Source: a virus | Strand: one strand, 5' to 3' | Virus record (IMG/VR): IMGVR_UViG_3300033148_003551 | Span: 1-28,774 of that record | DNA: 28,774 nt | Shown: positions 1,781 to 27,600 of the stretch, one piece after another | Numbering within the stretch: position 1 is the stretch's first letter | How the letters are laid out: every line of letters starts with the position of its first letter | The notes under the pieces: model-generated | The model's input: the letters and a program-made list of their open reading frames with translations, nothing else | What the model was told of the DNA's origin: nothing | Databases searched by the model: none | Position numbers and translations under genes: made by a program

Positions 1781-1849
1781 GTGAAATTAGTACGCAACTT
1801 TACAGGTAAAATAGCAGTGGGGGCAAAGGACATAACCTTATCAAAATGA
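1781..1849 (+). CDS. N-terminal fragment of the PPDK-like protein, out of frame with the main ORF
   Basis: A GTG at 1781, just after the AGGAGGT site at 1770-1776, opens a 22-codon frame that ends at TGA 1847-1849. Its last residues (GAKDITLSK) align with the conserved PPDK N-terminus (GGKGANLAE), including the Lys equivalent to ATP-binding Lys22 of Clostridium symbiosum PPDK. The conserved Met that comes next in the family is the ATG at 1846, which begins the main 609-aa frame. The two frames meet at AAAATGA; one extra A there would fuse them. The fragment therefore belongs to the PPDK-like gene, joined by -1 slippage, reinitiation at ATGA, or a one-base sequence error. Confidence 0.7.
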   Translation: MKLVRNFTGKIAVGAKDITLSK

Positions 1850-3675
1850 AACTTGATGGTCTCAATGTACCGTCTGGTTTAGTTGTGCCTACTGAGGTTT
1901 GTAATGCCTACAGGACTGCAACTGCAATCGGACAGGATGAGATTCTGAATCAAGTCATTGAAGCTGTCATGATAGAGCTTGAAGCGAATGTTTACCCAGA
2001 AGCAAACTCAAGGCTTCTGTCAGTTCGTTCAGGTGCTCCCGTGTCAATGCCGGGTATGATGGACACCATTTTAAATGTCGGGGCAGGTTATGAAGATGAC
2101 GGTCTTGCTCCCAAGCTCAAGAAAGATTGCCGTAGACGTTTCGTTGAAATGTATGCTTCGGTTGTCATGGGTCACACCAAGAAAATTGAGAATCCTGTTG
2201 AGTGGATGAAGTCAATCAAGAAGCACATCCCTGAAGTTCGGGATGTCATCAAGAATTCTATCAAGGCAGTTTGGGATTCCTTTGATAACGAAAGAGCGGT
2301 TCACTATCGCAAGATGAACAGCATCCCTAATGACATGGGAACTGCTGTTGTCATTCAGAGCATGGTGTTCGGAAACTATAATTCCAAGTCTGGTTCTGGT
2401 GTCATGTTTACTCGCAACCCTTCAACGGGTGAGAAGCGAGTGTTCGGAGAATTCCTGACCAATTGTCAGGGTGAAGATGTTGTTGCGGGTACTACTACTG
2501 CTCCCCCGATTTCTGATATGCAGAAGACTGCGGGTTTCAAAAACCTTTACAAGCAACTGATCAAAATCGGTGAGAAGCTTGAAAAGAAAAACAAGGATAT
2601 GCAGGACATTGAATTTACTATTGAGAACGGTGAGCTTTTCATTCTCCAAACTCGCAACGGTAATCGTTCTGCTTACGCTGAAATCAGGATTGCTCTTGAC
2701 CTCCTTGATGAAGGTCTGATTGATGAGCTTGGTGATCGAGTAAACGAAGGGACTTTTATGAAGCTTCGTGTTCCTACTCTCCCCGAAGATTTCAACCTGA
2801 CTCCTGCTGCAAAGGGAATCGGTTCCGGTGGATATTTCGCAACTGGTAAAGTTGCCTTTGGTAAGGATGAAGTTATGAATGCAACTGAGCCTTGTGTTTT
2901 GGTTGCTGAAGAAACTACCCCCGATGATATCAAGGCAATGGAAAAGGCTGAAGGAATCCTGACCTATAAAGGTGGGGCAACTTCTCACGCTGCTGTTGTT
3001 GCTCGTGGAATGAACAAGCCTTGTGTTGTCGGTTGTGCTGACAGTGCAAACCAGTCCATGAACTATGTTTTGATCGATGGTCAAACTGGTAAGGTTTGGT
3101 TTTCTGATGAAGCTTTTGATCTGGAATTTAACACCAACATTCCGGTTGAACTTTTGGGTGACTTGTTTGAAGTCGCGATTACTGAAAGCGATTGGATCAA
3201 GGTTGAAAATTATGACGAAGCTCTGAGCCTTGAAGATTACATTTACAAAATCGGTGTTCCGGTTCATGACCTGACTGGTGATGAGTTGGCTGATCTGGCT
3301 GATCGTTTTGACAAAGTTATTTTGTTGAACCCTGAACGTAAAGATCGAGTCAGTGACTTTCTGGGTAATGCGAATCCTGAAGAAATGGATAACGCTAGAA
3401 AACTGGATGAAGTGATTTGTAATAATCCTGCAATGACCAACGTGTTTTTTGATTCAGGAAACTGGATCACTGACCAAGTTGCCAAGCCTTATAAAACTAT
3501 GGCTGATGTTATGAACCCTGATTTTATCGGCTACATTGAAAAGGGTTTTGTTGAGAACATCATGGGTGATCAAGAGACTTTTGAAAAGATCAGTGAGCAA
3601 CTTGGACTTCATGCACGGGTTGTTGATATGGAAAGTGCTCTTGGACTTCTCGAAAAGAGGATTAACATAGGGTAG
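1846..3675 (+). CDS. pyruvate phosphate dikinase-like protein lacking the PEP/pyruvate barrel
   Basis: Strong similarity to the N-terminal and central domains of PPDK, which phosphorylates a His using ATP and phosphate and passes the phosphate to pyruvate. Visible motifs: SVRSGAPVSMPGMMDT at residues 59-74, SGVMFTRNPSTGE near 184-196, DIEFTIE at 254-260, LQTRNGNR at 267-274 (ATP-grasp), and the phosphohistidine loop GGATSHAAVVARGM with His381. Usual PPDK is about 870-900 aa; here the roughly 350-aa C-terminal PEP/pyruvate TIM barrel is absent and is replaced by about 190 residues (420-609) that I do not recognise. The true N-terminus is encoded in another frame at 1781-1849; ATG 1846 has no ribosome binding site of its own. 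It probably autophosphorylates from ATP, but the acceptor is unknown. Rifampicin phosphotransferase is a related family but fits the motifs less well. Confidence 0.88.
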   Translation: MKLDGLNVPSGLVVPTEVCNAYRTATAIGQDEILNQVIEAVMIELEANVYPEANSRLLSVRSGAPVSMPGMMDTILNVGAGYEDDGLAPKLKKDCRRRFVEMYASVVMGHTKKIENPVEWMKSIKKHIPEVRDVIKNSIKAVWDSFDNERAVHYRKMNSIPNDMGTAVVIQSMVFGNYNSKSGSGVMFTRNPSTGEKRVFGEFLTNCQGEDVVAGTTTAPPISDMQKTAGFKNLYKQLIKIGEKLEKKNKDMQDIEFTIENGELFILQTRNGNRSAYAEIRIALDLLDEGLIDELGDRVNEGTFMKLRVPTLPEDFNLTPAAKGIGSGGYFATGKVAFGKDEVMNATEPCVLVAEETTPDDIKAMEKAEGILTYKGGATSHAAVVARGMNKPCVVGCADSANQSMNYVLIDGQTGKVWFSDEAFDLEFNTNIPVELLGDLFEVAITESDWIKVENYDEALSLEDYIYKIGVPVHDLTGDELADLADRFDKVILLNPERKDRVSDFLGNANPEEMDNARKLDEVICNNPAMTNVFFDSGNWITDQVAKPYKTMADVMNPDFIGYIEKGFVENIMGDQETFEKISEQLGLHARVVDMESALGLLEKRINIG

Positions 3676-3681
3676 ACTCCG

Positions 3682-4107
3682 ATGCTGATTCCATTACTCA
3701 AAATGCTTATGTCTTTGATCTGCCCCAAATGCGGGGGATTCTCATGGCTGAAAGAAGAAGCCGATACAGTAATTCAGATGTGCGTTTGTGGTCTGAATAA
3801 ATTTGTATACCTTAAATCAGGGAATCAAACTTTCACAAGGGTTCCAGTAAAAGCGAGTACAGTTGTCCTCCCCGCAAGGGGAAGCCAGTTGTCTCAAGTT
3901 CTAGGCTGCTTGATTATCTTGGGGGAATTAACCTCTCAGCAGATAGCAGTTCAACTCAGTATCACGGTAGACAAAGCCACAACAAATTTGTCTGTCCTTC
4001 GTTCACGGGGGTTGATACATACCCTTGAAGATCGAAAGGGAAGACTAGGAGGTTCGTTATGGGAAGTCTATGCAGTGGTCACAAAGAAATGGTATCGAGG
4101 AAAATAA
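3682..4107 (+). CDS. zinc-ribbon plus winged-helix DNA-binding protein (putative regulator)
   Basis: The N-terminal part carries two Cys pairs, CPKC at residues 14-17 and CVC at 34-36, a zinc-ribbon layout. Residues about 68-141 read as a winged helix: a helix, then LTSQQIAVQLSITVDKAT as helix-turn-helix, a recognition helix with LRSRGLIHTL, and a charged wing. This suggests a small transcription factor or nucleic-acid-binding protein. It lies 6 nt after the PPDK-like gene and one base before the CsrA-like start, so it is in the same transcript. The start is uncertain: Met8 and Met10 are alternatives and the upstream ribosome site is weak. Confidence 0.7.
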   Translation: MLIPLLKMLMSLICPKCGGFSWLKEEADTVIQMCVCGLNKFVYLKSGNQTFTRVPVKASTVVLPARGSQLSQVLGCLIILGELTSQQIAVQLSITVDKATTNLSVLRSRGLIHTLEDRKGRLGGSLWEVYAVVTKKWYRGK

Positions 4108-4108
4108 A

Positions 4109-4399
4109 ATGGCACTTGTATTAGGAATGAATCTTGAAAAAGATAATGAGATTTGGTTGGATAATCTGAAGATTACTCTTGACCGAATCATGAACCCCAA
4201 TGAAACAGCTATCACAGTTCACGGGAAATACATGACAGAAAAGAAAGTGATCAACACCAAAGGAATGACCCATGTGACTACCTCCCCTGTTGTGGGGATG
4301 ATGTTGGGAACTGATACAAATGTTGATGGGTTCTGTCGGGTACTGGTTGAAGCTCCCCGAAAGGTTAAGGTAGATCGTGGGGCAAAGAGAAAAGGCTAA
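4109..4399 (+). CDS. CsrA-like RNA-binding protein with a central insertion (96 aa)
   Basis: The first 28 residues (MALVLGMNLEKDNEIWLDNL then KITLDRI) line up with the CsrA start (MLVL-R---GE-I-IGD-ItVtVl), and the end (CRVLVEAPRKVKVDR) lines up with its fourth and fifth strands (VRIGIEAPRDVKVxR). Between them about 45 residues replace the usual short turn. CsrA binds GGA motifs in mRNA leaders and controls translation; a phage homologue could act on phage or host messages. I chose ATG 4109 over an in-frame ATG at 4070 because it has GAGG at 4097-4100 and gives the CsrA-like N-terminus. It overlaps the next gene at TAATG. Remote similarity, seen by pattern only. Confidence 0.6.
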   Translation: MALVLGMNLEKDNEIWLDNLKITLDRIMNPNETAITVHGKYMTEKKVINTKGMTHVTTSPVVGMMLGTDTNVDGFCRVLVEAPRKVKVDRGAKRKG

Positions 4400-4875
4400 T
4401 GCTTTATAAATTCAGCCAAGGAGCCAAAGAAGATTTGTTGGCTTTGCAAAGTGAATATTCGTTTGCGGATATCATAGGCTTTTTGAAAACTGGTGTGAGT
4501 GTTAAAGGACAAATCAAACACAACCATCTGCTGATTAAAGCCAAGGGTGGAACTGTCATGGCTGTGACATTTGACCACCTACCAAAACCCGCAAGGTACT
4601 ACAATTTCAAATGTGTAGTTTGTTGGGACTCTCACAAAATTCAGGTGGGTGACCAATGTAATTTTTGCGGGGGGGAAGGATGCTCTGAATGTCAGAGCGG
4701 ATTAATTTTTAAAACCATAGCCTGTCCAAACTGCACAGGCAAACAGACACTAGGGGATAGTGATGAATGGATCAATAGAAGTAAAATTGAACGGGCGCAA
4801 AGTCACGGTAATGGGAGGCCCATACCGAGACAGACCCAAAGGAATCAGAGGCGTAAAACTAGCCAAAGAAATTAA
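4399..4875 (+). CDS. DnaJ-type zinc-finger protein, 158 aa
   Basis: Starts at TAATG overlapping the CsrA-like gene. The N-terminal 65 residues are unrecognised. Residues about 71-113 hold four CxxC pairs (CVVC, CNFC, CSEC, CPNC) with GGEG and QSG turns, the layout of the DnaJ cysteine-rich domain that binds two zinc ions. There is no J-domain. Such stand-alone fingers occur in phage and may aid protein folding or bind nucleic acids. The last 39 residues, after the finger, overlap the start of the phosphatase gene in a different frame and are Arg/Gln-rich, so they are constrained by the overlap and may not be functional. Confidence 0.72.
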   Translation: MLYKFSQGAKEDLLALQSEYSFADIIGFLKTGVSVKGQIKHNHLLIKAKGGTVMAVTFDHLPKPARYYNFKCVVCWDSHKIQVGDQCNFCGGEGCSECQSGLIFKTIACPNCTGKQTLGDSDEWINRSKIERAQSHGNGRPIPRQTQRNQRRKTSQRN

Positions 4876-5302
4876 TGCTGCTGCGGATGTCGTTCTTGAT
4901 ATTCCTGACTTCGGTGTTCCTCGCATGGATGCCTTGAATGACCCCCTGTACAAAGCTCTTCGGATTCTAGAAGAAGACGGAGTGATCTATGTGGGCTGCA
5001 TGGGGGGCATTGGCAGGACAGGAATGTTCATGGCTCTGCTGATCAAGTGTCTTGGTTCATTGGCTTACCACAGAGCACGAGCGTCCTTGTGGGGTAGGAT
5101 CAAGATGAAGTTCGGGAACTACCCTGCCAATCTGGACATTGCTAAGCAGTGCGCCTATCCGATTGAGTATGTGCGGGAGCATTACCTTGGACATGCCATT
5201 GAAACAGAATCACAGGAACAGCTTATTGCTGACTTCAGTGCTGACGATTTGATCAAGGTGCGGGGCATTCGCCGGGCTATCCTGAAGAGTCTTGAAGATT
5301 GA
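4763..5302 (+). CDS. tyrosine/dual-specificity protein phosphatase, first copy
   Basis: Contains the cysteine phosphatase P-loop CMGGIGRTG (C79-X5-R85-T) preceded by hydrophobic strand VIYVG, and an upstream Asp-containing loop (LDIPDFG) that could supply the general acid. At 179 aa it is in the usual size range for small phosphatases. It should remove phosphate from Tyr/Ser/Thr or from another phosphorylated substrate in the cytoplasm. Start ATG 4763 follows GGGG at 4753-4756; GTG 4760 is an alternative. The gene overlaps the preceding zinc-finger gene by 113 nt. The last 25 residues (LIKVRGIRRAILKSLE) may form a helix-hairpin-like tail. A second phosphatase lies at 6627-7295. Confidence 0.8.
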   Translation: MNGSIEVKLNGRKVTVMGGPYRDRPKGIRGVKLAKEINAAADVVLDIPDFGVPRMDALNDPLYKALRILEEDGVIYVGCMGGIGRTGMFMALLIKCLGSLAYHRARASLWGRIKMKFGNYPANLDIAKQCAYPIEYVREHYLGHAIETESQEQLIADFSADDLIKVRGIRRAILKSLED

Positions 5303-5617: not shown

Positions 5618-6625
5618 GTGAATCTTAAAGACTTAAAAAAATCCATGTTGTTCAAAGCCTGTGCTTATGACAGGGAGCCAATCAACATGGAGAAATTCAT
5701 TGAGGTAAATAATGCTTCAATGATTTGTCCTGAGTCTGACCTGATCCGATTTTATTTGGGTGCTCATATTCTGGGTGCTGTAGAAAATAAATTTGGAATT
5801 GAAGCGGAGCTTTCTGAAGCTGTTGCGGGGTTGGTTGAATATCATCATAGTGCAATGGAAGAAGTATTTTTTCGAATCTTCACTTACATCATGCTTATCT
5901 CAATGGGCGAATCCAGACACGGACACAACAGTTCAAAACTGGAATTAATTTCTCAGAAGTTTGGTTTGGATGTTACGAACTACGCAACCATAATCACCAA
6001 GAGTTCAGGCAGGAGCGGAGCACGAAAAGAATTTTTACAATCTGATCGTGACGTTCTGAACTTCATGGAATATTGTGACTGGATGTTTATTGATTGTTTC
6101 TCCGGTGGTTCCTACGGTGGGCCGAAATGGAAAGTCATCAGCAACAAAGCAACCCAAGTTTTGAACGGGGAAATTTCTCCCTTCACGATGGTTGATGTTG
6201 CGTGGGCTTTGGTTCACAACACTGGAAGCATCTTCAACAAGAACACAATTTATAGTTCGGAATATTCTACTGACGGTCTGACTCAGTTGCTTGACATGCA
6301 AAGGGGTGGAGCAATTCCTTCACTGATCAAACATTTTGATTTGTATAACGTGGCTTCAGGTTGGAACGTGAACAAAAAATTCCTGACTGAATTTGAGGCT
6401 TTCGTTGATAAAGCTTCTGAGACTCTGGGTGAAGACCTTGCTGCTTTCGTTCCTCTCTATGAGGTTGCCGAAGCAGGAGCCTTGAGCCACACAATCAAGA
6501 GCCAATTGTTGAGCAGTTCGGAAAATGCTGAAGCTACTCCCTTGGATGGTGGACTGTCTTTCAACGGGGAGATTTTTGATCTAGGTGTTGTCTCTATTCC
6601 CAAGATGAAAAGAGGGGTAGCGTAA
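5618..6625 (+). CDS. unrecognised phage protein (335 aa)
   Basis: GTG start at 5618, chosen because CTAGGAGG (5603-5610) sits just upstream; the same sequence ACTAGGAGGTTG precedes the gene at 421. The protein appears largely helical, with a hydrophobic central segment (residues 83-95, VFFRIFTYIMLIS) that looks like a buried helix rather than a membrane span. His pairs (EYHH near 74-77, RHGHN near 99-103) could bind metal, but I see no known motif. It ends one base before the second phosphatase, so they are probably co-translated. Function unknown. Confidence 0.8.
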   Translation: MNLKDLKKSMLFKACAYDREPINMEKFIEVNNASMICPESDLIRFYLGAHILGAVENKFGIEAELSEAVAGLVEYHHSAMEEVFFRIFTYIMLISMGESRHGHNSSKLELISQKFGLDVTNYATIITKSSGRSGARKEFLQSDRDVLNFMEYCDWMFIDCFSGGSYGGPKWKVISNKATQVLNGEISPFTMVDVAWALVHNTGSIFNKNTIYSSEYSTDGLTQLLDMQRGGAIPSLIKHFDLYNVASGWNVNKKFLTEFEAFVDKASETLGEDLAAFVPLYEVAEAGALSHTIKSQLLSSSENAEATPLDGGLSFNGEIFDLGVVSIPKMKRGVA

Positions 6626-6626
6626 A

Positions 6627-7295
6627 ATGTCAAAGTCAAAAATTGTAGACATGTGGGGTGGTGGAACCGGAAGCAAGAAAGGGTCTTGTTGGGAGAGTCA
6701 CCCTGTTTATGAAATCAATGGGATGCCTATAGTCGGGGGAAGTTGCACAAGCAACTATCCTGATGTGGATGTGTTCATTGCTCTGGATGGTGGTGCTCGA
6801 AAAGGAAAACGATCTTACCCGTGGAACAAAGGGGTGGATATTTATTTTAAGATCGTGGACATGCAGGTTCCCGATGACATCAAAGAATTCAAAAAGCTTC
6901 TGTCCTACACTGCCAAGCAGATGAAGGCAGGGAAGAGCATCTATGTGGGTTGTATCGGTGGACACGGAAGGACAGGTTTATTCCTTGCTGCCCTGACAAC
7001 CTTCATGACAGGTGACAAGGATTCGATCAAGACAGTCAGAGCGGAGTATTGTCACAAGGCTGTTGAGTCTTCGGTTCAAATGGTTTGGTTGAACAAGTAT
7101 TTTGACATCACCAAAGTTGAACCTTCGAAGAAAGTCATCAGCAACTATTCGAAGAAGAAAGGCAAAAAGGATTCTACTATTTTGCCGTGGGGAAACCCCC
7201 AACAGGATGCATGGGTGGAAGGCAAGGTGACGGAGCAACCCCCCACCAATTACATGCACACAAACGGAAGCAAAATAGTCATCAATAACGATTGA
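6627..7295 (+). CDS. tyrosine/dual-specificity protein phosphatase, second copy
   Basis: P-loop CIGGHGRTG gives C109-X5-R115-T after the strand SIYVG, matching the first phosphatase closely at this site, while the rest of the sequence is clearly different. An acidic loop (DMQVPDD, about 78-84) may hold the general acid. It is 222 aa, with a Lys-rich, probably unstructured C-terminal third (KKVISNYSKKKGKKD). The gene starts one base after the 335-aa gene. Having two diverged cysteine phosphatases within 2.5 kb suggests two substrates or a diverged pair. Confidence 0.8.
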   Translation: MSKSKIVDMWGGGTGSKKGSCWESHPVYEINGMPIVGGSCTSNYPDVDVFIALDGGARKGKRSYPWNKGVDIYFKIVDMQVPDDIKEFKKLLSYTAKQMKAGKSIYVGCIGGHGRTGLFLAALTTFMTGDKDSIKTVRAEYCHKAVESSVQMVWLNKYFDITKVEPSKKVISNYSKKKGKKDSTILPWGNPQQDAWVEGKVTEQPPTNYMHTNGSKIVINND

Positions 7296-7304
7296 AAATA
7301 AATC

Positions 7305-7373
7305 GAAAATAGTTCAACATTTATTTGTCAAGGTGCTATACTTCACTTACTTAAACAGAAACACGGAAACAAA
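7305..7373 (+). promoter_or_regulatory. repeated promoter-leader cassette, copy B
   Basis: Extended -10 TGC-TATACT (7337-7342), upstream TTGTCAA and GAAAATAGTTCAACATT, and downstream leader ACTTAAACAGAAACACGG. It lies between the second phosphatase and the 57-aa gene at 7374. Copies A and D match it closely. Confidence 0.78.
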
Positions 7374-7547
7374 ATGAACCACTTCTTCAACGAAAGCCAC
7401 AACCCCACAGCCAAGGAAATTGCTGTGATGCTTCAGATAGCGAAAGCTGAACGCATTCAAAGACGCATGGAGCAACTTGCTGTTGCTGCTGATTGGCCTG
7501 AAGCGAAACGTGGAACCCACACTTACAAGCCTAACGGTCAATTGTAA
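7374..7547 (+). CDS. hypothetical small protein (57 aa)
   Basis: ATG at 7374 directly follows the leader of promoter cassette B, and the TAA stop abuts the ATG of the next gene (TAAATG). The product is basic and helical in its middle (AKEIAVMLQIAKAERIQRRM), with a short tail ending THTYKPNGQL. No family recognised. Its placement right behind a conserved promoter argues that it is translated. Confidence 0.65.
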   Translation: MNHFFNESHNPTAKEIAVMLQIAKAERIQRRMEQLAVAADWPEAKRGTHTYKPNGQL

Positions 7548-8303
7548 ATGTCAGAATCACTTCACATTCAGAAGCCAGAGAAATCCCCTTTGCCAATATC
7601 GGTGAAGGGTGCTTTGGCTCAACACAAACCCAAGCTGCTGAGCATCACTGCGATGATCAAAATCTTTGGCAAGGGGATTGCTGTTGAAATGCAAGAACAT
7701 GGAATGGAACTTTCTGTGTGTAACCATCAGGCAATTTTTGTTTCTGATCAGACTCACTCCAAGATTGATCTGAGTGATGACCTGACTGATGAGGCAAAAG
7801 TTCAAATGATTAAAGATGCTGTGAACTATCTGAATCCTTCAGTACCCACAGCCAAGAAACTTCCTGCTTCGAAAACGAAGGGGAAGAAAGTTGTTAAGCC
7901 CAAAATCTTAGGAGTTGATATGGCACATGACGAAATAGCAGCAGAAGTCGGGAACGGTGGAATCACTTCCCTTCCGAAAGCAAAAACATTTTATGATCCG
8001 GTAACCAGTTCATCAGCAGGTTCACGCTATGTTTATTTAGCGAAGCTGAAAGATGGAAAAGCAAAGCTTGCAATTCGCTTCAAAGGAACAGCAGTCTCAG
8101 TCAGGATCGAACCTTTCAACGATGAGCTTCAGTTGATTGCTGACGTTCTTGGATTGAACAACAATGGAACTTATGCATCTGGACATTTTCAGGCTGCTGA
8201 TACCACGTTGGTTCGATACATGAATTTGGTTGCGGGAACCCTTCAAGACAAATGGGATGTTGCCAAGTTCAACGAAAAGAAAATTCGTGAGGTTGGTGCG
8301 TGA
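7548..8303 (+). CDS. hypothetical protein (251 aa), possibly two domains
   Basis: Begins immediately after the 57-aa gene. An N-terminal region (to about residue 100) and a C-terminal region (about 145-251, beta-rich with YVYLAKLKDGKAKLAIRF) are joined by a Lys-rich linker (about 103-120). Neither part carries a motif I recognise. The stop overlaps the GTG of the next gene (GTGCGTGA context). Located upstream of the polymerase, so a role in replication or recombination is possible but not shown. Confidence 0.75.
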   Translation: MSESLHIQKPEKSPLPISVKGALAQHKPKLLSITAMIKIFGKGIAVEMQEHGMELSVCNHQAIFVSDQTHSKIDLSDDLTDEAKVQMIKDAVNYLNPSVPTAKKLPASKTKGKKVVKPKILGVDMAHDEIAAEVGNGGITSLPKAKTFYDPVTSSSAGSRYVYLAKLKDGKAKLAIRFKGTAVSVRIEPFNDELQLIADVLGLNNNGTYASGHFQAADTTLVRYMNLVAGTLQDKWDVAKFNEKKIREVGA

Positions 8304-8482
8304 AGAAATCCACACAAAAAAAGAAAGCCCCTCTGACATTTTACGGGGGGGATTTTCTTGTGGGTTCCAAGTTGGGATTGATCGTGACTGATCGAACAAC
8401 CAAATCAATTACCCTGTCCTATGGTGGGGTAAGTTTGGGGAAACATTTCGGGAAGGTAACCAATGAACATCAGCCAAGCTAA
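8300..8482 (+). CDS. hypothetical small basic protein (60 aa)
   Basis: GTG start overlaps the preceding stop. The first ten residues are strongly basic (VKKSTQKKKA), the rest looks like a small beta-sheet with Gly-Gly turns. The gene contains a run of seven G at about 8345-8351, a site prone to sequence error. Its 3' end overlaps the next ATG by 20 nt. No family recognised. Confidence 0.55.
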   Translation: MKKSTQKKKAPLTFYGGDFLVGSKLGLIVTDRTTKSITLSYGGVSLGKHFGKVTNEHQPS

Positions 8483-8846
8483 TTTGTATGAAGTGCTTGA
8501 TGCCTTTGCGGTGAGTGCAACGGTGGGAGTGAAGAACACGGGGAAGGTGGTGTTTGCTATCAACTCAGAAATGCACATTGACAATGGATATGTGGATGTC
8601 TCCCTTCGGGTTCAGGGGTTGCACATAAGAGAAACCACAAACTCACTTTATGCGATAATGAGAATCGGGGATTTGGGGATAATTGGAATTGCAAAATCTG
8701 CTGAGTTCAAATCAGTTTGTCTCTTTGATTTTTCTCATCCGGTTGCTGATGCCTATTACATGACCCTTGATTGGAATGCCTTGCTTCAGCATTTGTCTGA
8801 AGATAAATGGCACAGTGAATTTGTAGTGGAGTATATTGAATGCTAA
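8463..8846 (+). CDS. hypothetical protein (127 aa)
   Basis: ATG 8463 has GGGAAGG a few bases upstream. The product is acidic to neutral, beta-rich, without Cys clusters or membrane segments. Its end overlaps the start of the DNA polymerase gene by 7 nt, which points to translational coupling and possibly an accessory role, but no function can be read from the sequence. Confidence 0.7.
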   Translation: MNISQANLYEVLDAFAVSATVGVKNTGKVVFAINSEMHIDNGYVDVSLRVQGLHIRETTNSLYAIMRIGDLGIIGIAKSAEFKSVCLFDFSHPVADAYYMTLDWNALLQHLSEDKWHSEFVVEYIEC

Positions 8847-11164
8847 AGATTTGGAGCAAGGCATACCACCCAGATAAAATAAAAGAACTGGACGTTCTTC
8901 GGGGTGAAGGAATTCGAATATCCTACCCAACAGGCTCAGCAATTCCGTCACTGAAAGAAGGTGACGTTCTGCTGTCTATGGGTGGGGAAAATCTGAAGAC
9001 GATTCAGGAAGCGGGATTTTTTCACAAGGGGAGAACGATCACTTCCATGAGGGAAAAAGCTCATCCCCTTGGTGATGGAATCTGCTTCGTGACTTTTGAT
9101 ATTAGTATCAAAGATTTTGATTACACCCAATTTGTAAAATTTCAAACTGACCTTTCTTTGGTTCGGAGATATCTGGACACGGGAAGTCTGGAACCGCAAG
9201 TTGGGGATTATAAATGGGTGGAAGATTACAGTTATCTTCCTGAAATTATAAATCTGAAATACAACGAAACAGGCAAGCGTGTTCGTGTCGCTCTCGATCT
9301 GGAAACGGTTGGACTTGATCCGTGGGATAGCTCCAAATTTATTGTCAGTATTTCATTTTCAATTGTGGAGGGGATGTCAGAACTGATTCGATTTCAGGGA
9401 GTGGATGACCAACCAAAAAGAAACTCAGATTTGTGGGATCAAATAAATTGGTTGATGAACGATGACAGGATTTCTCTTGTCGGGGCAAACCTGAAATATG
9501 ATTTGATTTGGATTCGTCGGAAGTGGGGGATGCTTTGCACGAACTTCAAAATGGATACAACTTTGGTGGGGTCACTGCTTGACGAAAATCGAAGCAACTC
9601 CCTCAACACTCATGCAAAAATTTACTGCCCTTCTCTGGGTGGTTACGATGACACGTTTAATCAGACGGTTGATAAAAGTCGGATGGACTTGGTTTCGAAT
9701 GAAGACCTTCTGACCTATGCGGGGGGAGACACTGACGCAACTCTTCGGGTAGCAAACCAGATGGTCAAGAAACTTTCTGAGTCAGGATCACAAACCCGAT
9801 TTTATACCAACCTTCTTCACCCTGCTTCCCGTGCATTTGAGGACATGGAATTTAATGGGATTCTCGTGGACGTTGAGCACTACCAAAATTTGCAGGTAGA
9901 ACTATTCAGCGAAATGAAAAGGCTTGATCAGGAAGCACGGGATTTGATTCCAAATGCAATCCTCTATAAATACGATGGGGAGTTTAGTCTGACCAAATCC
10001 AAAATCATTTCAGACTTTATGTTTAACCATCCCAAGGGATTGAAGCTTGCTCCCCTGATGCTCACGGAAAAAACCAAAGTGGCATCAACTGCAATCGATC
10101 ATCTGAAGATGTTTGAAAGTGTTCCTGATGCAGTGGAGTTCGTGAAGATTTTCAAGGAGTGGAATTCAGCGAAGAAAACGGAGAGCACTTATGTCACGGG
10201 ATTTCTGAAACACTTGCGGGAGGATGGGAGGCTTCACCCAACAGCAATTTTATACCGTGGGGATTATGGTGGGGCAGGGGGAGAAGATGGAGGAACGGTG
10301 ACAGGGAGAACATCATTCAAAGACCCGGCATTTCAGACAGAACCGAAACACACAATTTGGGCTAAGAAATTGAGACAGGGTTTCCCTGCTCCTGAAGGTT
10401 ACGTGATTGTGAATTGGGATTACTCTCAGGGTGAGCTTCGGGTGATTGCGTGTGTGGCTAATGAACCCACAATGATTCAAGCCTACCTTGATGGGATTGA
10501 CATGCATCTGAAAACCGGAGCGGAGTTGAACGGGTACACCCTAGCGGAAGCCCTGACCATGAAGGAGGCAGGGGATGAGAAAATAAAAACAATAAGGCAG
10601 GGGGGCAAGGCAGGAAACTTCGGATTGATTTACGGGATTAGCCCTGAAGGTTTTGTGGAGTATGCGCGGAACACTTACGGGGTGGAAGTTTCTTTGGAAG
10701 AAGCCATTGCTCAGCAAGAACAATTTTTTGGACTCTATCCAGAGCTTTCCCGATACCACAAAGAATATAAAGAATACGCTCATGAGTACGGGCTTGTTCA
10801 ATCTCCGTTGGGTAGGGTTCGTCATTTGCCTTTGATCAATTCAAATAACTTCGGGAAGATGCTGCAATCTGAAAGACAGGCAATCAACTCCCCGATTCAA
10901 TCAACCCTGTCAGACCTCTCTCAGTTGTCCCTAGCGATCTTTAAGCAAAGGCATGGCAACCCTGAGACCTGTAGATTCTTTGCGATGACACACGATAGCC
11001 TGACTGCCTACGTGCGTGAAGACAAGGTGAATGTGTGGGGGCCAGAAGTATCAAACATCATGGAGACCTTACCCCTGAAGAGAATGTTTGGTTGGGTTCC
11101 TCAATTGCCGTTCCTGACTGATCGAGAGATTGGGCCGACATTCGGAGACCTTGTTGAAATGTGA
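8840..11164 (+). CDS. polA: family A DNA polymerase with 3'-5' exonuclease
   Basis: Replicative polymerase of 774 aa. The exonuclease has DLE (Asp153, Glu155), the Exo II stretch GANLKYD (215-221) and Exo III YAGGDTD (293-299), so it should proofread. Polymerase motif A is DYSQGELR (527-534), motif B is R586-K590-F594-Y598 within RQGGKAGNFGLIYG, and motif C is THDSL (717-721). The residue matching E. coli Phe762 is Phe594. Motif C has Ser where pol I has Glu (HDE), and motif A has Gly for Ile. There is no 5' nuclease domain; instead the first 145 residues are unrecognised, with a weak resemblance to uracil-glycosylase-like folds (LLSMGGENL...T). Expected to copy the phage genome. Preceded by a coupled small gene. 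Confidence 0.95.
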   Translation: MLKIWSKAYHPDKIKELDVLRGEGIRISYPTGSAIPSLKEGDVLLSMGGENLKTIQEAGFFHKGRTITSMREKAHPLGDGICFVTFDISIKDFDYTQFVKFQTDLSLVRRYLDTGSLEPQVGDYKWVEDYSYLPEIINLKYNETGKRVRVALDLETVGLDPWDSSKFIVSISFSIVEGMSELIRFQGVDDQPKRNSDLWDQINWLMNDDRISLVGANLKYDLIWIRRKWGMLCTNFKMDTTLVGSLLDENRSNSLNTHAKIYCPSLGGYDDTFNQTVDKSRMDLVSNEDLLTYAGGDTDATLRVANQMVKKLSESGSQTRFYTNLLHPASRAFEDMEFNGILVDVEHYQNLQVELFSEMKRLDQEARDLIPNAILYKYDGEFSLTKSKIISDFMFNHPKGLKLAPLMLTEKTKVASTAIDHLKMFESVPDAVEFVKIFKEWNSAKKTESTYVTGFLKHLREDGRLHPTAILYRGDYGGAGGEDGGTVTGRTSFKDPAFQTEPKHTIWAKKLRQGFPAPEGYVIVNWDYSQGELRVIACVANEPTMIQAYLDGIDMHLKTGAELNGYTLAEALTMKEAGDEKIKTIRQGGKAGNFGLIYGISPEGFVEYARNTYGVEVSLEEAIAQQEQFFGLYPELSRYHKEYKEYAHEYGLVQSPLGRVRHLPLINSNNFGKMLQSERQAINSPIQSTLSDLSQLSLAIFKQRHGNPETCRFFAMTHDSLTAYVREDKVNVWGPEVSNIMETLPLKRMFGWVPQLPFLTDREIGPTFGDLVEM
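9095..9112. repeat. variant palindrome TTTGATATTAGTATCAAA inside polymerase gene
   Basis: Differs by one loop base from the intergenic motif (CTTAGT to ATTAGT) and has a perfect six-base stem. It encodes FDISIK in the polymerase N-terminal region. It could be chance, but an 18-bp near-identity is unexpected. Confidence 0.45.
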
Positions 11165-11168
11165 ATTA

Positions 11169-11244
11169 GATCACAAAGAAAAGTCAGCAATTATTTGTCA
11201 ATGATGTATACTTTAAGGACTTAAACAGAAACACGGAAAATCAA
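11169..11244 (+). promoter_or_regulatory. repeated promoter-leader cassette, copy C (diverged)
   Basis: Keeps TTATTTGTCAA, TATACTT (-10 at 11207-11212) and the leader ACTTAAACAGAAACACGG. The upstream GAAAATAGTTCAACA block is altered to GAAAAGTCAGCAA and the TG of the extended -10 abuts the hexamer. It precedes the 183-aa gene at 11245. Confidence 0.7.
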
Positions 11245-11796
11245 ATGGCTTATGTATCACAACAACGTAAACAAGAACTGGCTCCCCAAATCAAAGCTGT
11301 ACTGAAGAAGTACAACATGAAGGGAACCATTGCGGTTCGTCATCACAGCACTTTAGTAGTCAACATCAAATCTGGTGATCTGGATGTTATCGGTAACTGG
11401 ATGGAGAATGACACTCCGGTAGTTCAAAACTACAAAGAGAGTGACACTGCTCCTGACCATCTTGATGTAAACACTTACCACATTGGTAGCGGTTACACTG
11501 GTGAAGTTGAAAACTTCCTGACTGAACTGAAGGATGCAATGAACGGTGAAGGTTCTGACGGTGAACAGAATTTTGACAAGTCTGACATCATGACTGATTA
11601 CTTTCACGTTGGTTGGTACATCGACATCAACATAGGTCAGTGGAACAAGCCTTACGTTTTCACTGGTGAGAAAGCTGACCCCACTCAAATCACTAAGCAA
11701 GATTTGATCGACATGAATGAGGGTTTTGTTAATCCTCCCAAGATGATCAGAATCGTTCGTGATGAATGGGCTGAGTCTGCTGCAAAATTTATCTAA
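11245..11796 (+). CDS. conserved-looking protein of unknown function (183 aa)
   Basis: ATG 11245 follows promoter cassette C. The start (MAYVSQQRKQELAPQIKAVL, then a Lys-Tyr helix and VRHHSTLVVNIKSG) resembles a family of uncharacterised proteins seen on phages and plasmids of Gram-negative bacteria, as I recall it. The protein is acidic with two folded-looking halves and a conserved-looking DYFHVGWYIDINIGQWNKPY stretch. It has its own promoter and is followed by a UUCG hairpin, so it may be strongly expressed by itself. Function unknown. Confidence 0.75.
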   Translation: MAYVSQQRKQELAPQIKAVLKKYNMKGTIAVRHHSTLVVNIKSGDLDVIGNWMENDTPVVQNYKESDTAPDHLDVNTYHIGSGYTGEVENFLTELKDAMNGEGSDGEQNFDKSDIMTDYFHVGWYIDINIGQWNKPYVFTGEKADPTQITKQDLIDMNEGFVNPPKMIRIVRDEWAESAAKFI

Positions 11797-11802
11797 CCAA
11801 CT

Positions 11803-11820
11803 AGCCCCTTCGGGGGCTTC
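11803..11820 (+). terminator. UUCG-loop hairpin, weak terminator
   Basis: AGCCCC (11803-11808), loop TTCG, GGGGCT (11813-11818), directly after the 183-aa gene. The T-tract is poor, so it may act as a partial terminator or as an mRNA 3'-end protector. Confidence 0.55.
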
Positions 11821-11823
11821 ACT

Positions 11824-11842
11824 CATCGACTAGGAAAAACTG
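11824..11842 (+). promoter_or_regulatory. repeated ribosome-binding leader CATCGACTAGGAAAAACTG
   Basis: This leader before ATG 11843 recurs almost unchanged before ATG 12171 (12152-12170), and in diverged form before ATG 12829 (12812-12828). The AGGA core serves as ribosome binding site; conservation of the flanks suggests shared translational control or gene-cassette duplication. Confidence 0.6.
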
Positions 11843-12145
11843 ATGAAAAAAACTTTTGAAGATAGCGACAAAGCAACCCAACTCTTTGAGCATTGTGGTA
11901 TGCGGGTTGTTCTGGAAGTCCACAAGCTGACAGGTGGTTGGTATGCTTCGGGTCAGATCACTCCGATGGTGGGCTATGATGAATCTCCCGTTGGGATTGA
12001 AATCAAGTGGTCTATCGTCAAGCCTCGTTCTTGGGGATTCAGTAATCGTGCGGAAGCTTCGAAAGCCCGTACCCAGATCAAGAAGGAAATTGCTGCCCGT
12101 ATTGAAGCGGGAGATTTCGAAGGCAATTTTATTAAGTACGTTTAA
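11843..12145 (+). CDS. hypothetical protein (100 aa)
   Basis: Starts after the repeated CATCGACTAGGA leader. A strand-rich first half (MRVVLEVHKLTGGWYASGQI) is followed by a Lys/Glu-rich C-terminal helix (RTQIKKEIAARIEAGDF). No family recognised. It is one of several small genes between the polymerase and the virion module. Confidence 0.7.
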   Translation: MKKTFEDSDKATQLFEHCGMRVVLEVHKLTGGWYASGQITPMVGYDESPVGIEIKWSIVKPRSWGFSNRAEASKARTQIKKEIAARIEAGDFEGNFIKYV

Positions 12146-12170
12146 ATAAATCATCGACTAGGAGAAACTG

Positions 12171-12428
12171 ATGAACACAAATCTTAAAACTTATCTAGAA
12201 CGGAAAAACCTTTGGCGCAATCATACGGGTGAGCCTGATCTGACAACGGACAACCTGACTCCCAAAGATTTTGAGTCACTGTTTGATTCAATTGAAAATG
12301 ATCTGTCTCCTGAGAACCTTCATTGTGACGGTGAGATTTCCAGAGCCGAAGCACAGAAGAAATATAAATTCCTGATGAGTGTGCAGAAGGAACTTGAAAC
12401 CCTGTATTACGCCTATCACCCTGAATGA
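12171..12428 (+). CDS. hypothetical protein (85 aa)
   Basis: Has the second copy of the repeated leader upstream. The product is acidic and mostly helical, with one Cys and no obvious motif. Its TGA stop overlaps the beginning of promoter cassette D. Confidence 0.65.
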   Translation: MNTNLKTYLERKNLWRNHTGEPDLTTDNLTPKDFESLFDSIENDLSPENLHCDGEISRAEAQKKYKFLMSVQKELETLYYAYHPE

Positions 12429-24353: not shown

Positions 24354-24830
24354 ATGGCTACCACTTTAACGATTATCCTTGAAGCCCAAAACCGGATATC
24401 AGGAGACCTTAAAAAAGTTTCTGGTGATGTAGGTAAGCTCAAACTTCAGCTTGACAAGCTCACTGCTACCACAGCAAAAACCGCTACGGGTTTCACTGCT
24501 CTTGCTGCTTCTATGAGGACTGCCAACACTGCGGGGAAGGGTCTTCAAACTACGCTCCTTGCCCTTGGTGGTATCACCCTCTTTGTGGGGGTAGTCAGAA
24601 CCCTTGTTGAGTTTGAACAAAAAATGGCTGAAGTCAGGGCAGTCACGGGGGCAACGGGGGATACCTTTGATGCTCTGTCTGACAAAGCTCGTGAGCTTGG
24701 TGCTTCTACGGTCTTCAGTGCTTCGGAAGCTGCTGCGGGTCTTGCCTTCTTAGGTCGAGCGGGTTTCACTGCTGATCAAGCCCTTGGTGCTATTGAAGGC
24801 ACATTGAATCTTGCTGCTGCGGGTGGCTAA
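24354..24830 (+). CDS. tape measure protein, N-terminal part (frame ends early)
   Basis: 158 aa with the start of the tape-measure core: FEQKMAEVRAVTGATGDTFD, KARELGASTVFSASEAAAGL and LAFLGRAGFTADQALGAIEG, then LNLAAAGG and stop. In the family this is followed by about 20 residues (LD-x-A-A-D-I-A-x-N) before the segment found at the start of the next frame. The two ORFs overlap by 20 nt and together make one tape measure gene interrupted by a frame change. Confidence 0.85.
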   Translation: MATTLTIILEAQNRISGDLKKVSGDVGKLKLQLDKLTATTAKTATGFTALAASMRTANTAGKGLQTTLLALGGITLFVGVVRTLVEFEQKMAEVRAVTGATGDTFDALSDKARELGASTVFSASEAAAGLAFLGRAGFTADQALGAIEGTLNLAAAGG

Positions 24831-27600
24831 TGAAGCCAATCGGGTTGCTGATGTTCTGGCCCTGACTGCTAATAGTGCAAACACCAATGTTGAACAGTTG
24901 GGTGATGCCTTTAAATTTGTTGGGCCTGTTGCTGCTGCCTTCGGGGTTTCGATTGAAGATACTGCTGCTGCTCTGGGTACGTTAGGAAATGCAGGTTTGC
25001 AAGCATCCCTTGCGGGTACTGGACTGCGAAAAATTCTCAGCACATTAGGTACACCCACCAAGAAACTGAATGACCTCCTGAAAAAGTTGGGTCTGACTTT
25101 CAGTCAGGTAAATCCTGATACAAATAAATTCGCTGATGTTATGCAGTTGCTTGCTGATCGTGGCATTGGTGCAACGGATGCTCTGAATGTTTTCGGTCAA
25201 CGGGGTGCTCCTGCGATATTGGCAGTCACTAGCCAGATTGGAAAGCTTCAGGAACTCACGGATGGGATGAAGGATGTTGCGGGTACTGCTGATACTACCG
25301 CAAAGATTTTGACTGATACTCTGGGTGGTTCACTGAAGGAACTCAGATCAGCATTTGAAGAATTGATTTTGAGCACGGGTGATGATGGTCTTGGTGAAAA
25401 TCTCCGTGCAATTGTTCAGGGCTTTACCGGAGTCATCAGGGCATTGAATGGAACCCTTGACCCCCTGAATGAGAATGCGAAGCTCTATGAGCAGATTGCT
25501 GCGGGTGTTCGTGCATTGAAGTTCGTGCTCATTGCTCTGATAGCTGTGAGGACGCTGAGCTTCTTTGGTGGGATCATTGCCACGTTGGGAACCCTCACAA
25601 CAACTTTCGCTACTGCTGCTGTAGGGGTCACAGGATTTGCTAGGGCTATGATTGGACTCAGGACTATTGTTCTGGGTGCTCTTGGGCCTGTCGGGTGGAT
25701 TGTAGGCATTGGGTTAGCCCTGCTTGCATTCGCACAGGATGACGCTCCACAGGCTGTTGATGCTTTGAAGCTCGTGACACGGGAAGTCAATTCCCTACGC
25801 AAAGAATTTGAAGCTGCTTCGTTGGCTGCTGTTGATATTCGTATTGGGGATGCTGAACGTCGAAATGAGTTGATTGATGAAAATGTTCGGAGAATCAAAG
25901 AAGAAATAAAAGCCAATAAGGAATTGTTAAAGCAAGCGGGTCAGGGAACATTCGGGCAAGGGTTTGAAATAAAAGCCCGTGAAGATGAACTGAAGGAAGA
26001 ACTCCGTGGGTTGCAGATAGTTAAAGATATCAATGTTGCTCAACTTGCTGAGCTTGCTGACATTCGGGTTGAAGCCGATAAGCGAAGGATTGCACAGGAA
26101 GAGCAGACCCTTGAAGCACTAAAGAAACTCCAACAACAGCAACTTCAGGCTGAGCTTGCTGCGGGTCGAGCGCAAATCAATCTCAATGAAGCTATTGCAT
26201 TGGATGAATTGGAAACAGCCCAGAAGCTTGCTAAGGATATAGCTATTATCCGAAAGGGTGAGCTTGATAAATCTCTGGCTGAAAGGACTATTAGTATCGA
26301 TGAGTATTATGATGGGCTTGAAGCTCTGGCTCTGGAAGCTCTGGATACTGACCTTGCCATTGAGAGACAGAAGCAAGCTGCTCTGACGGAGTTACAGAAT
26401 CAGCAACGGGATGTTCTCCAAGAACGAACTGTAAAGAAAGTCGGGGATGAAGTTGAAGGGTCAGATGAACAAGCTGCTGTTGCGGGAAGATTCAAAGCGG
26501 AACAGGAAGCCCAAGAAATCAGATTTAAACAGGAGCAACTTGCTCTTGATCAGCAATTAACAATTCTTCAGGCAAAGCGTGATGGTGCGATTGCCAAGAA
26601 TGAAGCTGCTCGTGCAAAGGCATCAGCTAAACAACTTGATGCGGATATCAAGGCATTTGATGATGAGTTTGATGCTAAAGAAGCAGCACAGAAGCAAGCG
26701 TTTGATGATGAGTTTGACGCTATCATTCTTCAGCGTGATCGTCTATCTGCTGCTGCGGAGAGGGACGTTGAATCAGGGGCAGCATCAAGCTTTGGTTTGG
26801 GGGCTGCTCTGGATGAAATAGATGAAGATGCTATTCAAAAATTGACTGACCTACAGGAGCGGGTGCAACTTTTCAGTGATACAACCACAGACCCTATTCT
26901 TCCTGAGAAGATTGCTGCTATCGGTGATGCAATTGTAGACATGTCTCTGAGGTCAAGTGAGAGTATTCGAGCGGTCATTACTCAGTTGGGTGAAGGTCTT
27001 GGTGATGCTTTGTTTGATATTCTGGAAGGAACCAAATCAGCCAAGGAAGCATTTTCAGATTTCGCTAGAAGCTTCCTGCGGTCAATTGCGAAAATGATTC
27101 TGCAACAGATTGCATTGAATGCGGTGAAAGCTGCGGGTAGAGCATTCGGGTTTGGCTTCTCCGGTGGTGGTGCGGTACATGCAAAAGGTGGTGGTTCTAT
27201 CCAAGGCTTTGCTGAAGGTGGTTACATCACAGGCAAGGGAGGCCCAACCTCTGACACTATCAATGCTCGTTTGTCAGACGGTGAGTATGTGGTGAATGCT
27301 GCTGCTGTGAAAGGTTATGGTCTGAATTTCATGGAAGCAATCAACCGGATGAAAGTTGATAAACCTGCGGGACTTCCGAAGTTCGCAATCACTAGACCCC
27401 GCAAAGTTGCTTTTGCTGATGGTGGTGTTGTGGATTCCGGTGCTCAAACAAATGAATCCAAAGCTCCCGCTTCTTCTTTGCGGATCGTGAATGTAGTGGA
27501 CACGGATCAGACTTCAGATTATTTATCGAGTGCTGACGGTGAAGCGATGATTGTTAATATAATTCGTCGGAATGGTTCAACGATCAAGTCAATAATTTAG
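24811..27600 (+). CDS. tape measure protein, main part
   Basis: 929-codon frame from a TTG with no ribosome site; its first family-like residues are NEANRVADVLALTANSANTN and GDAFKFVGPVAAAFGVS. Later features: a hydrophobic region (about 234-310, including FVLIALIAVRTLSFFGGIIA and VGWIVGIGLALLAFA), a long helical Glu/Lys/Gln-rich part, and a Gly-rich C-terminus (SGGGAVHAKGGGSIQGFAEG). The protein sets tail length and helps DNA pass the membrane. With the first part it totals nearly 1,100 residues, implying a tail on the order of 150 nm. It includes an imperfect tandem repeat FDDEFDA at about 617-635. Confidence 0.88.
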   Translation: MLLRVANEANRVADVLALTANSANTNVEQLGDAFKFVGPVAAAFGVSIEDTAAALGTLGNAGLQASLAGTGLRKILSTLGTPTKKLNDLLKKLGLTFSQVNPDTNKFADVMQLLADRGIGATDALNVFGQRGAPAILAVTSQIGKLQELTDGMKDVAGTADTTAKILTDTLGGSLKELRSAFEELILSTGDDGLGENLRAIVQGFTGVIRALNGTLDPLNENAKLYEQIAAGVRALKFVLIALIAVRTLSFFGGIIATLGTLTTTFATAAVGVTGFARAMIGLRTIVLGALGPVGWIVGIGLALLAFAQDDAPQAVDALKLVTREVNSLRKEFEAASLAAVDIRIGDAERRNELIDENVRRIKEEIKANKELLKQAGQGTFGQGFEIKAREDELKEELRGLQIVKDINVAQLAELADIRVEADKRRIAQEEQTLEALKKLQQQQLQAELAAGRAQINLNEAIALDELETAQKLAKDIAIIRKGELDKSLAERTISIDEYYDGLEALALEALDTDLAIERQKQAALTELQNQQRDVLQERTVKKVGDEVEGSDEQAAVAGRFKAEQEAQEIRFKQEQLALDQQLTILQAKRDGAIAKNEAARAKASAKQLDADIKAFDDEFDAKEAAQKQAFDDEFDAIILQRDRLSAAAERDVESGAASSFGLGAALDEIDEDAIQKLTDLQERVQLFSDTTTDPILPEKIAAIGDAIVDMSLRSSESIRAVITQLGEGLGDALFDILEGTKSAKEAFSDFARSFLRSIAKMILQQIALNAVKAAGRAFGFGFSGGGAVHAKGGGSIQGFAEGGYITGKGGPTSDTINARLSDGEYVVNAAAVKGYGLNFMEAINRMKVDKPAGLPKFAITRPRKVAFADGGVVDSGAQTNESKAPASSLRIVNVVDTDQTSDYLSSADGEAMIVNIIRRNGSTIKSII

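Follow-up and report, generated by a model that had tools for sequence, protein, structure and literature searches.

A PPDK-like phage protein without a recognisable PEP/pyruvate barrel, encoded in a conserved operon with CX5R phosphatases

The analysed stretch of DNA (the window), a virus record in IMG/VR with a length of 28,774 bases, encodes a protein that resembles PPDK in its first two domains. In published phage genomes, among them that of a Vibrio phage reported in 2025, the gene is annotated as coding for a PEP/pyruvate enzyme and credited with reprogramming the host carbon metabolism. The locus raises the question whether such a protein can still act on pyruvate or PEP, and what would receive the phosphate otherwise. 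Should the whole family lack the pyruvate half, the claims on host carbon metabolism need revising and a large phage lineage carries an uncharacterised kinase/phosphatase operon.

The phosphate-loading half and the missing barrel

The window gene has the following features.

1770-1776, + strand: strong ribosome-binding site AGGAGGT ahead of the native start GTG 1781, seen in the sequence and in the same layout in the relatives L002-L008
1781-1849, + strand: native N-terminal piece of 22 codons, in another frame than the main ORF; L002-L008 are intact there
1819-1839, + strand: GGKGHNL loop including the codon of the ATP-binding Lys (1825-1827), in the main frame only and upstream of ATG 1846
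1846-3675, + strand: barrel-less PPDK-like protein (PHROG 18609), ORF of 609 amino acids
1846-2745, + strand: ATP-grasp nucleotide-binding domain, residues 1-300 (Pfam PPDK_N; structure match 1kbl)
2806-3120, + strand: swivelling phosphohistidine domain, residues 321-425 (Pfam PEP-utilizers; structure match 2fm4)
3121-3672, + strand: linker and C-terminal 184 residues in the position of the PEP/pyruvate barrel of PPDK, without barrel family, motif or sequence similarity

In Pfam, the window ORF matched PPDK_N (E 1.3e-35) and the His domain PEP-utilizers (E 1.8e-24) and nothing else. An earlier note, made from the sequence alone, had proposed a PPDK-like enzyme without the PEP/pyruvate domain, and this was borne out, as PEP-utilizers_C was absent. 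PHROGs assigned the ORF to family 18609, whose sole label is 'kinase'. The nearest solved structures by sequence were PPDKs, with the match limited to the ATP-grasp and His domains, and the predicted structure superimposed on PPDK 1kbl over 441 residues at 2.5 Å, both domains together. The codon of the catalytic His381 was found at 2986-2988 and the phosphohistidine loop reads KGGATSHAAVVARGM; the loop had been described as intact, which holds, and its His is invariant in 54 relatives. Invariant in the same 54 relatives are the residues that align with R92, E323, Q335 and R337 of the C. symbiosum enzyme, and the position aligning with D321 is almost invariant. We take these five to be ATP-site residues of PPDK. 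For the pairs with L002-L004, dN/dS was 0.14-0.16 in the ATP-grasp domain and 0.11-0.17 in the C-terminal region; the L007 pair was saturated, and the values cover the three pairs with finite dS. They indicate strong purifying selection on the phosphate-loading half. The ATP-grasp domain would split ATP and load the swivelling His. PPDK begins its reaction in this way, and self-phosphorylation on His has been shown for VadK, which also lacks a barrel; by analogy with both, the short PPDK is likely to charge its own His from ATP.

The scan of IMG/VR gave 104 confirmed relatives, and the 80 best of them were retained. The proteins of the short family (PHROG 18609) are 570-770 residues long and are parted from the full-length PPDKs by one fully supported branch of the tree. 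Phage homologues of the same architecture had been suggested as a check, and all 54 short-family relatives matched both PPDK_N and PEP-utilizers, with none (0/54) matching PEP-utilizers_C (PF02896). PF02896 was also absent from the ORFs flanking the short-PPDK loci and from 11 whole or near-whole phage records, each of which contained PF00391 exactly once; the control genomes were positive for PF02896 in 14 of 14 cases. Five barrel active-site motifs were found in none of 68 short proteins and in 10-11 of 11 full-length PPDKs. The motifs presumably surround the PEP/pyruvate site, with positions as in C. symbiosum PPDK. A single exception among 69 proteins, L080, turned out to be a broken full-length PPDK. 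Five annotated isolates lacked the motifs as well, and the match of the relative L033 to TIGR01828 ended at position 525 of 865 with 566 bits, where the cut-off is 843.

A barrel encoded in a neighbouring gene, which the earlier note had named as a refuting finding, was rejected after searching the short-PPDK flanks, the HP335 loci and seven bacterial contigs. Barrel matches in these searches were limited to full-length PPDKs and the broken L080; in the module-bearing bacterial contigs there was none around the module. Judged by these sequences, the protein of the window family is very probably not a pyruvate/PEP enzyme.

Compared with PPDK (TIGR01828, C. symbiosum 1KBL), the phage proteins share the ATP-grasp and phosphohistidine domains, including the presumed catalytic residues, but are shorter (PPDK has about 875-910 residues), form a separate clade and have neither barrel family nor barrel motifs. 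PPDK-derived kinases without a pyruvate domain are already known. VadK of Mycobacterium tuberculosis (Rv1127c) is a PPDK descendant that autophosphorylates on His without a pyruvate domain and has a regulatory role (PMC13400623). By its published description it is like the phage proteins in having the ATP-binding and His domains and no PEP/pyruvate domain, but it is bacterial, about 50 kDa in size and ends at or soon after the His domain, whereas in most of the phage proteins another 120-230 residues follow, and their genes sit in a fixed operon with phosphatases. The phage short PPDKs are also matched by NF004531, an NCBIfam model of 534 positions that we take to represent VadK-type proteins. 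If the reading holds, this would be a second case, after mycobacterial VadK, of a PPDK turned into a signalling-type kinase, here in viruses. As far as we found, the viral family with its fixed phosphatase operon is undescribed as such in the literature.

Rather than a stray metabolic gene, the short PPDK is part of the core gene set of a lineage of proteobacterial phages. The family is present in phages of Vibrio, Rhizobium, Stenotrophomonas and Rhodobacter. The PPDK search matched 61 phage records and the HP335 search 41 (Vibrio 33, Stenotrophomonas 4, Rhizobium 2, Rhodobacter 1, uncultured 1), with identical counts for the four named genera in both searches. Bacillus phage G (gp139; L174 3905-5002) encodes a PPDK-like protein of 365 residues but lacks the module; this may be a barrel-less form of its own. 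Proteins of about 1400-1500 residues in many bacterial genomes (for example G061:C150:6171-7658) combine the PPDK ATP-grasp and His domains with no barrel match, and are possibly another barrel-less group.

The C-terminal region and the acceptor

Sequence searches with the last approximately 180 residues of the window protein matched neither a Pfam family nor a PDB chain, and a profile of the C-terminus gave no credible match in the PDB. The C-terminus as a barrel homologue was rejected by profile comparison, in which it scored no better against the barrel of 40 full-length PPDKs than the shuffled-column and unrelated-family controls. The description in the earlier note of about 190 unfamiliar residues replacing the barrel thus stands at the sequence level. 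For the fold it does not stand in the same way: the structure model of the window protein had low confidence over the C-terminus, so that the suggested barrel-fold check on residues 400-609 gave a low-confidence model, and the relative L033 aligned over the barrel with a large rmsd. In the L033 model, the pLDDT was mostly 70-94 in the C-terminal region, and 688 of 720 residues aligned with PPDK residues 2-871 at an rmsd of 8.8 Å. The structure-search lists were filled by the N-terminal domains, and other C-terminal folds missing from them carry no weight. From the models, a shrunken and emptied barrel is possible and a catalytic barrel unlikely.

Within the clade of the window, C-terminal identity was 66-82%, compared with 65-73% for the ATP-grasp domain. 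Between clades it fell to about 12%, whereas the ATP-grasp and His domains remained at 43-48%, and a separate C-terminal alignment across the family contained zero invariant columns. Because the region has no residue conserved family-wide and yet is tightly constrained within the clade, these alignments favour docking of a partner by the C-terminal domain as more likely than a second active site shared by the family.

We lean towards a phage-lineage-specific, PPDK-derived histidine phosphotransferase that would no longer act on pyruvate/PEP and would have a non-pyruvate acceptor, a reading for which the sequences argue somewhat more than against. In its second step, the charged His may swing to this acceptor while the C-terminal domain docks the partner; this step is inferred with less support than the loading of the His.

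The acceptor could also be a small molecule. In a dikinase of the RPH or HpeHI type, the C-terminus would bind a host metabolite, a nucleotide or an antibiotic, whose hydroxyl the His would phosphorylate. RPH and the two-component dikinases HpeHI/PpsAB pair the same swivelling-His engine with another acceptor domain and a non-pyruvate acceptor (PMC12167813), and the high C-terminal identity within the clade of the window as well as a dCMP deaminase gene near the short PPDK in this clade fit such an enzyme. Since the C-terminus of L033 can be aligned over the barrel positions, a cryptic small-molecule site is possible. However, the shared catalytic pocket expected of such an enzyme has no counterpart in a family-wide C-terminal residue. 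The ATP-grasp domains of RPH and HpeHI/PpsAB are closer to PEP synthase than to PPDK, and their acceptor domain and domain order differ from those of the phage proteins. In RPH, unlike here, the order of the domains is different, and the window protein has only a short linker between ATP-grasp and His, with no rifampin-binding domain at this place. On balance, we regard a small-molecule dikinase as rather unlikely.

In the published view, the protein is a functional PPDK whose barrel is reduced. There, the C-terminal 170-200 residues would bind PEP/pyruvate and boost the host carbon metabolism. The homologue of Vibrio phage vB_VneS_J26 (ORF98, 691 residues) was published as a PPDK metabolic gene, and its AlphaFold model, with PEP docked, was described as containing a 'TIM barrel' of four strands (PMC12038007). 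ORF98 and PHROG 18609 are the same kind of protein in the same operon as in the window, with a published role in PEP/pyruvate metabolism. The long alignment of the L033 model with PPDK also speaks for a reduced barrel, but its rmsd is 8.8 Å. The motif and PF02896 searches were negative for J26 as well as for the short proteins, the C-terminus did no better than the controls against barrel profiles, and its alignment lacks any invariant residue. A reduced-barrel PPDK is therefore highly improbable, and the published metabolic annotations of phage 'PPDK' genes are probably wrong, as far as the sequences can tell.

The operon and HP335 as a candidate partner

The genes downstream of the short PPDK in the window are the following.

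3682-4107, + strand: Zn-binding/winged-helix-like protein (weak matches; in a minority of the relatives' operons, 23 loci)
4070-4399, + strand: CsrA-like protein (family in 63 loci; relatives match PF02599)
4399-4875, + strand: Zn-ribbon protein, a usual operon member (55 loci)
4760-5302, + strand: CX5R (DSP/PTP-type) phosphatase 1, P-loop CMGGIGRTG
5618-6625, + strand: HP335 (PHROG 20946), uncharacterised protein, a strict partner of the short PPDK
6627-7295, + strand: CX5R phosphatase 2, P-loop CIGGHGRTG
7548-8303, + strand: HP251, uncharacterised conserved operon member (55 loci)
8840-11164, + strand: DNA polymerase I, the conserved downstream boundary of the module

The gene order was PPDK, sometimes the Zn/winged-helix protein, CsrA-like protein, Zn-ribbon protein, phosphatase, HP335, phosphatase, HP251 and DNA polymerase I, and the portal gene came next where it was seen. 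Some isolates, among them LV6 and J26, have one phosphatase listed and not two. The neighbours named in the earlier note were recovered: the two phosphatases, the CsrA-like protein (clear in the relatives) and a possible Zn/winged-helix protein, the latter by weak matches only. The overlap of the ORF at 4399 with the phosphatase was considered as another frame break and rejected, as the relatives have the same overlap. PHROG 17568, to which the proteins at 4760-5302 and 6627-7295 belong, is labelled thymidylate synthase, probably a mistaken annotation, as the proteins are CX5R phosphatases. The gene of J26 annotated as 'pyruvate decarboxylase' (L173 8881-9735) is a member of the HP251 family (E 5e-33).

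Where the short-PPDK locus had room downstream, a phosphatase and HP335 were present in 48 of 49 cases, the exception being again the broken full-length L080. Neither was found at any of the full-length PPDK loci (0/11 each). The search started from HP335 gave 73 loci with PPDK and 9 without. In eight of these nine, the sequence stops less than 1.5 kb upstream; the remaining one (L172) belongs to a distant giant phage, the uncultured 595-kb phage LR756511, in which two tandem HP335-like ORFs lie at 7368-12376 with no PPDK and no phosphatases. In all seven bacterial contigs with HP335, the PPDK was present together with the greater part of the module. These contigs (L086-L092), filed under bacterial genomes, carry the module with polymerase and portal and are probably prophages or co-assembled phages.

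HP335 has 20 invariant residues and gave no credible match in the PDB or Pfam. Its distances correlated with those of the PPDK core at r 0.83, compared with 0.36 for the DNA polymerase, in values uncorrected for tree structure; for the C-terminal region, the partial correlations were weak (0.10-0.37). The close tracking of the PPDK core by HP335 is suggestive. As HP335 always accompanies the short PPDK and has so many invariant residues, it is the leading candidate for a partner in the same operon, an assignment that we hold tentatively, and it is singled out here as a testable one.

The earlier note had also read the neighbourhood as a phosphotransfer or regulation cluster. The conserved operon with two phosphatases agrees with this, but the synteny extends to the DNA polymerase and the portal. 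Because the syntenic core of the phosphatases includes these two genes, the synteny is no proof of a shared reaction, and the linkage of PPDK and module may partly be lineage backbone. CX5R phosphatases usually have phosphoesters as substrates and need not belong to the pathway of the short PPDK. Both phosphatases retain the CX5R Cys and Arg, consistent with action on a phosphoester. In the proposed phosphotransferase pathway they would dephosphorylate the final phosphoester; that they act on the same product is conceivable, with the odds somewhat against it. A viral module for reversible phosphorylation, in which the His kinase, its clade-specific docking domain and HP335 write phosphate on a hydroxyl acceptor and the CX5R phosphatase or phosphatases erase it, is a speculative and rather unlikely extension. 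Equally speculative is that the acceptor would come from the phage or the host and that such a module would be a core function of large Proteobacteria phages mistaken for carbon metabolism. A search of a defence-system database gave nothing notable, and a role in DNA hypermodification was rejected, the module being conserved without any modification enzyme.

The frame break at the start of the window gene

The span 1781-3675 had been read as one gene, which did not hold: GTG 1781 and the PPDK domains are in different frames. The frame opened by GTG 1781 stops at TGA 1847-1849. In the PPDK frame, a TAA stands at 1807-1809, and there is no standard start ahead of ATG 1846. The break lies within about 1800-1812, and the region is about 25 nt shorter than in L007. 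In the relatives L002-L008 the start and the GGKGHNL loop share one frame and the N-terminus is intact. The claim of intact ATP-grasp motifs is correct for the family, in which GGKG is almost invariant, but not for the contig as sequenced, because the GGKGHNL loop lies outside the 609-residue ORF. That the start and this loop are in different frames counts against the non-pyruvate model.

Since the close relatives are intact at the same place, the break is likely to be a contig error or a recent mutation and no property of the family. Programmed frameshifting was rejected as a family feature for the same reason. The tape-measure gene (24354-24830 and 24811-27600) is also apparently split into two frames, near 24826, and this second break favours the contig error. 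A decaying gene, with the window copy as a pseudogene or the whole family as a remnant, would account for the break ahead of the GGKG loop but is highly improbable, given unbroken close relatives, the sign of contig error in the tape-measure gene, retention of the family in the phages of all four host genera, and an intact remaining ORF with 66-74% identity and low dN/dS. Downstream of the break, the remainder of the window ORF is well preserved.
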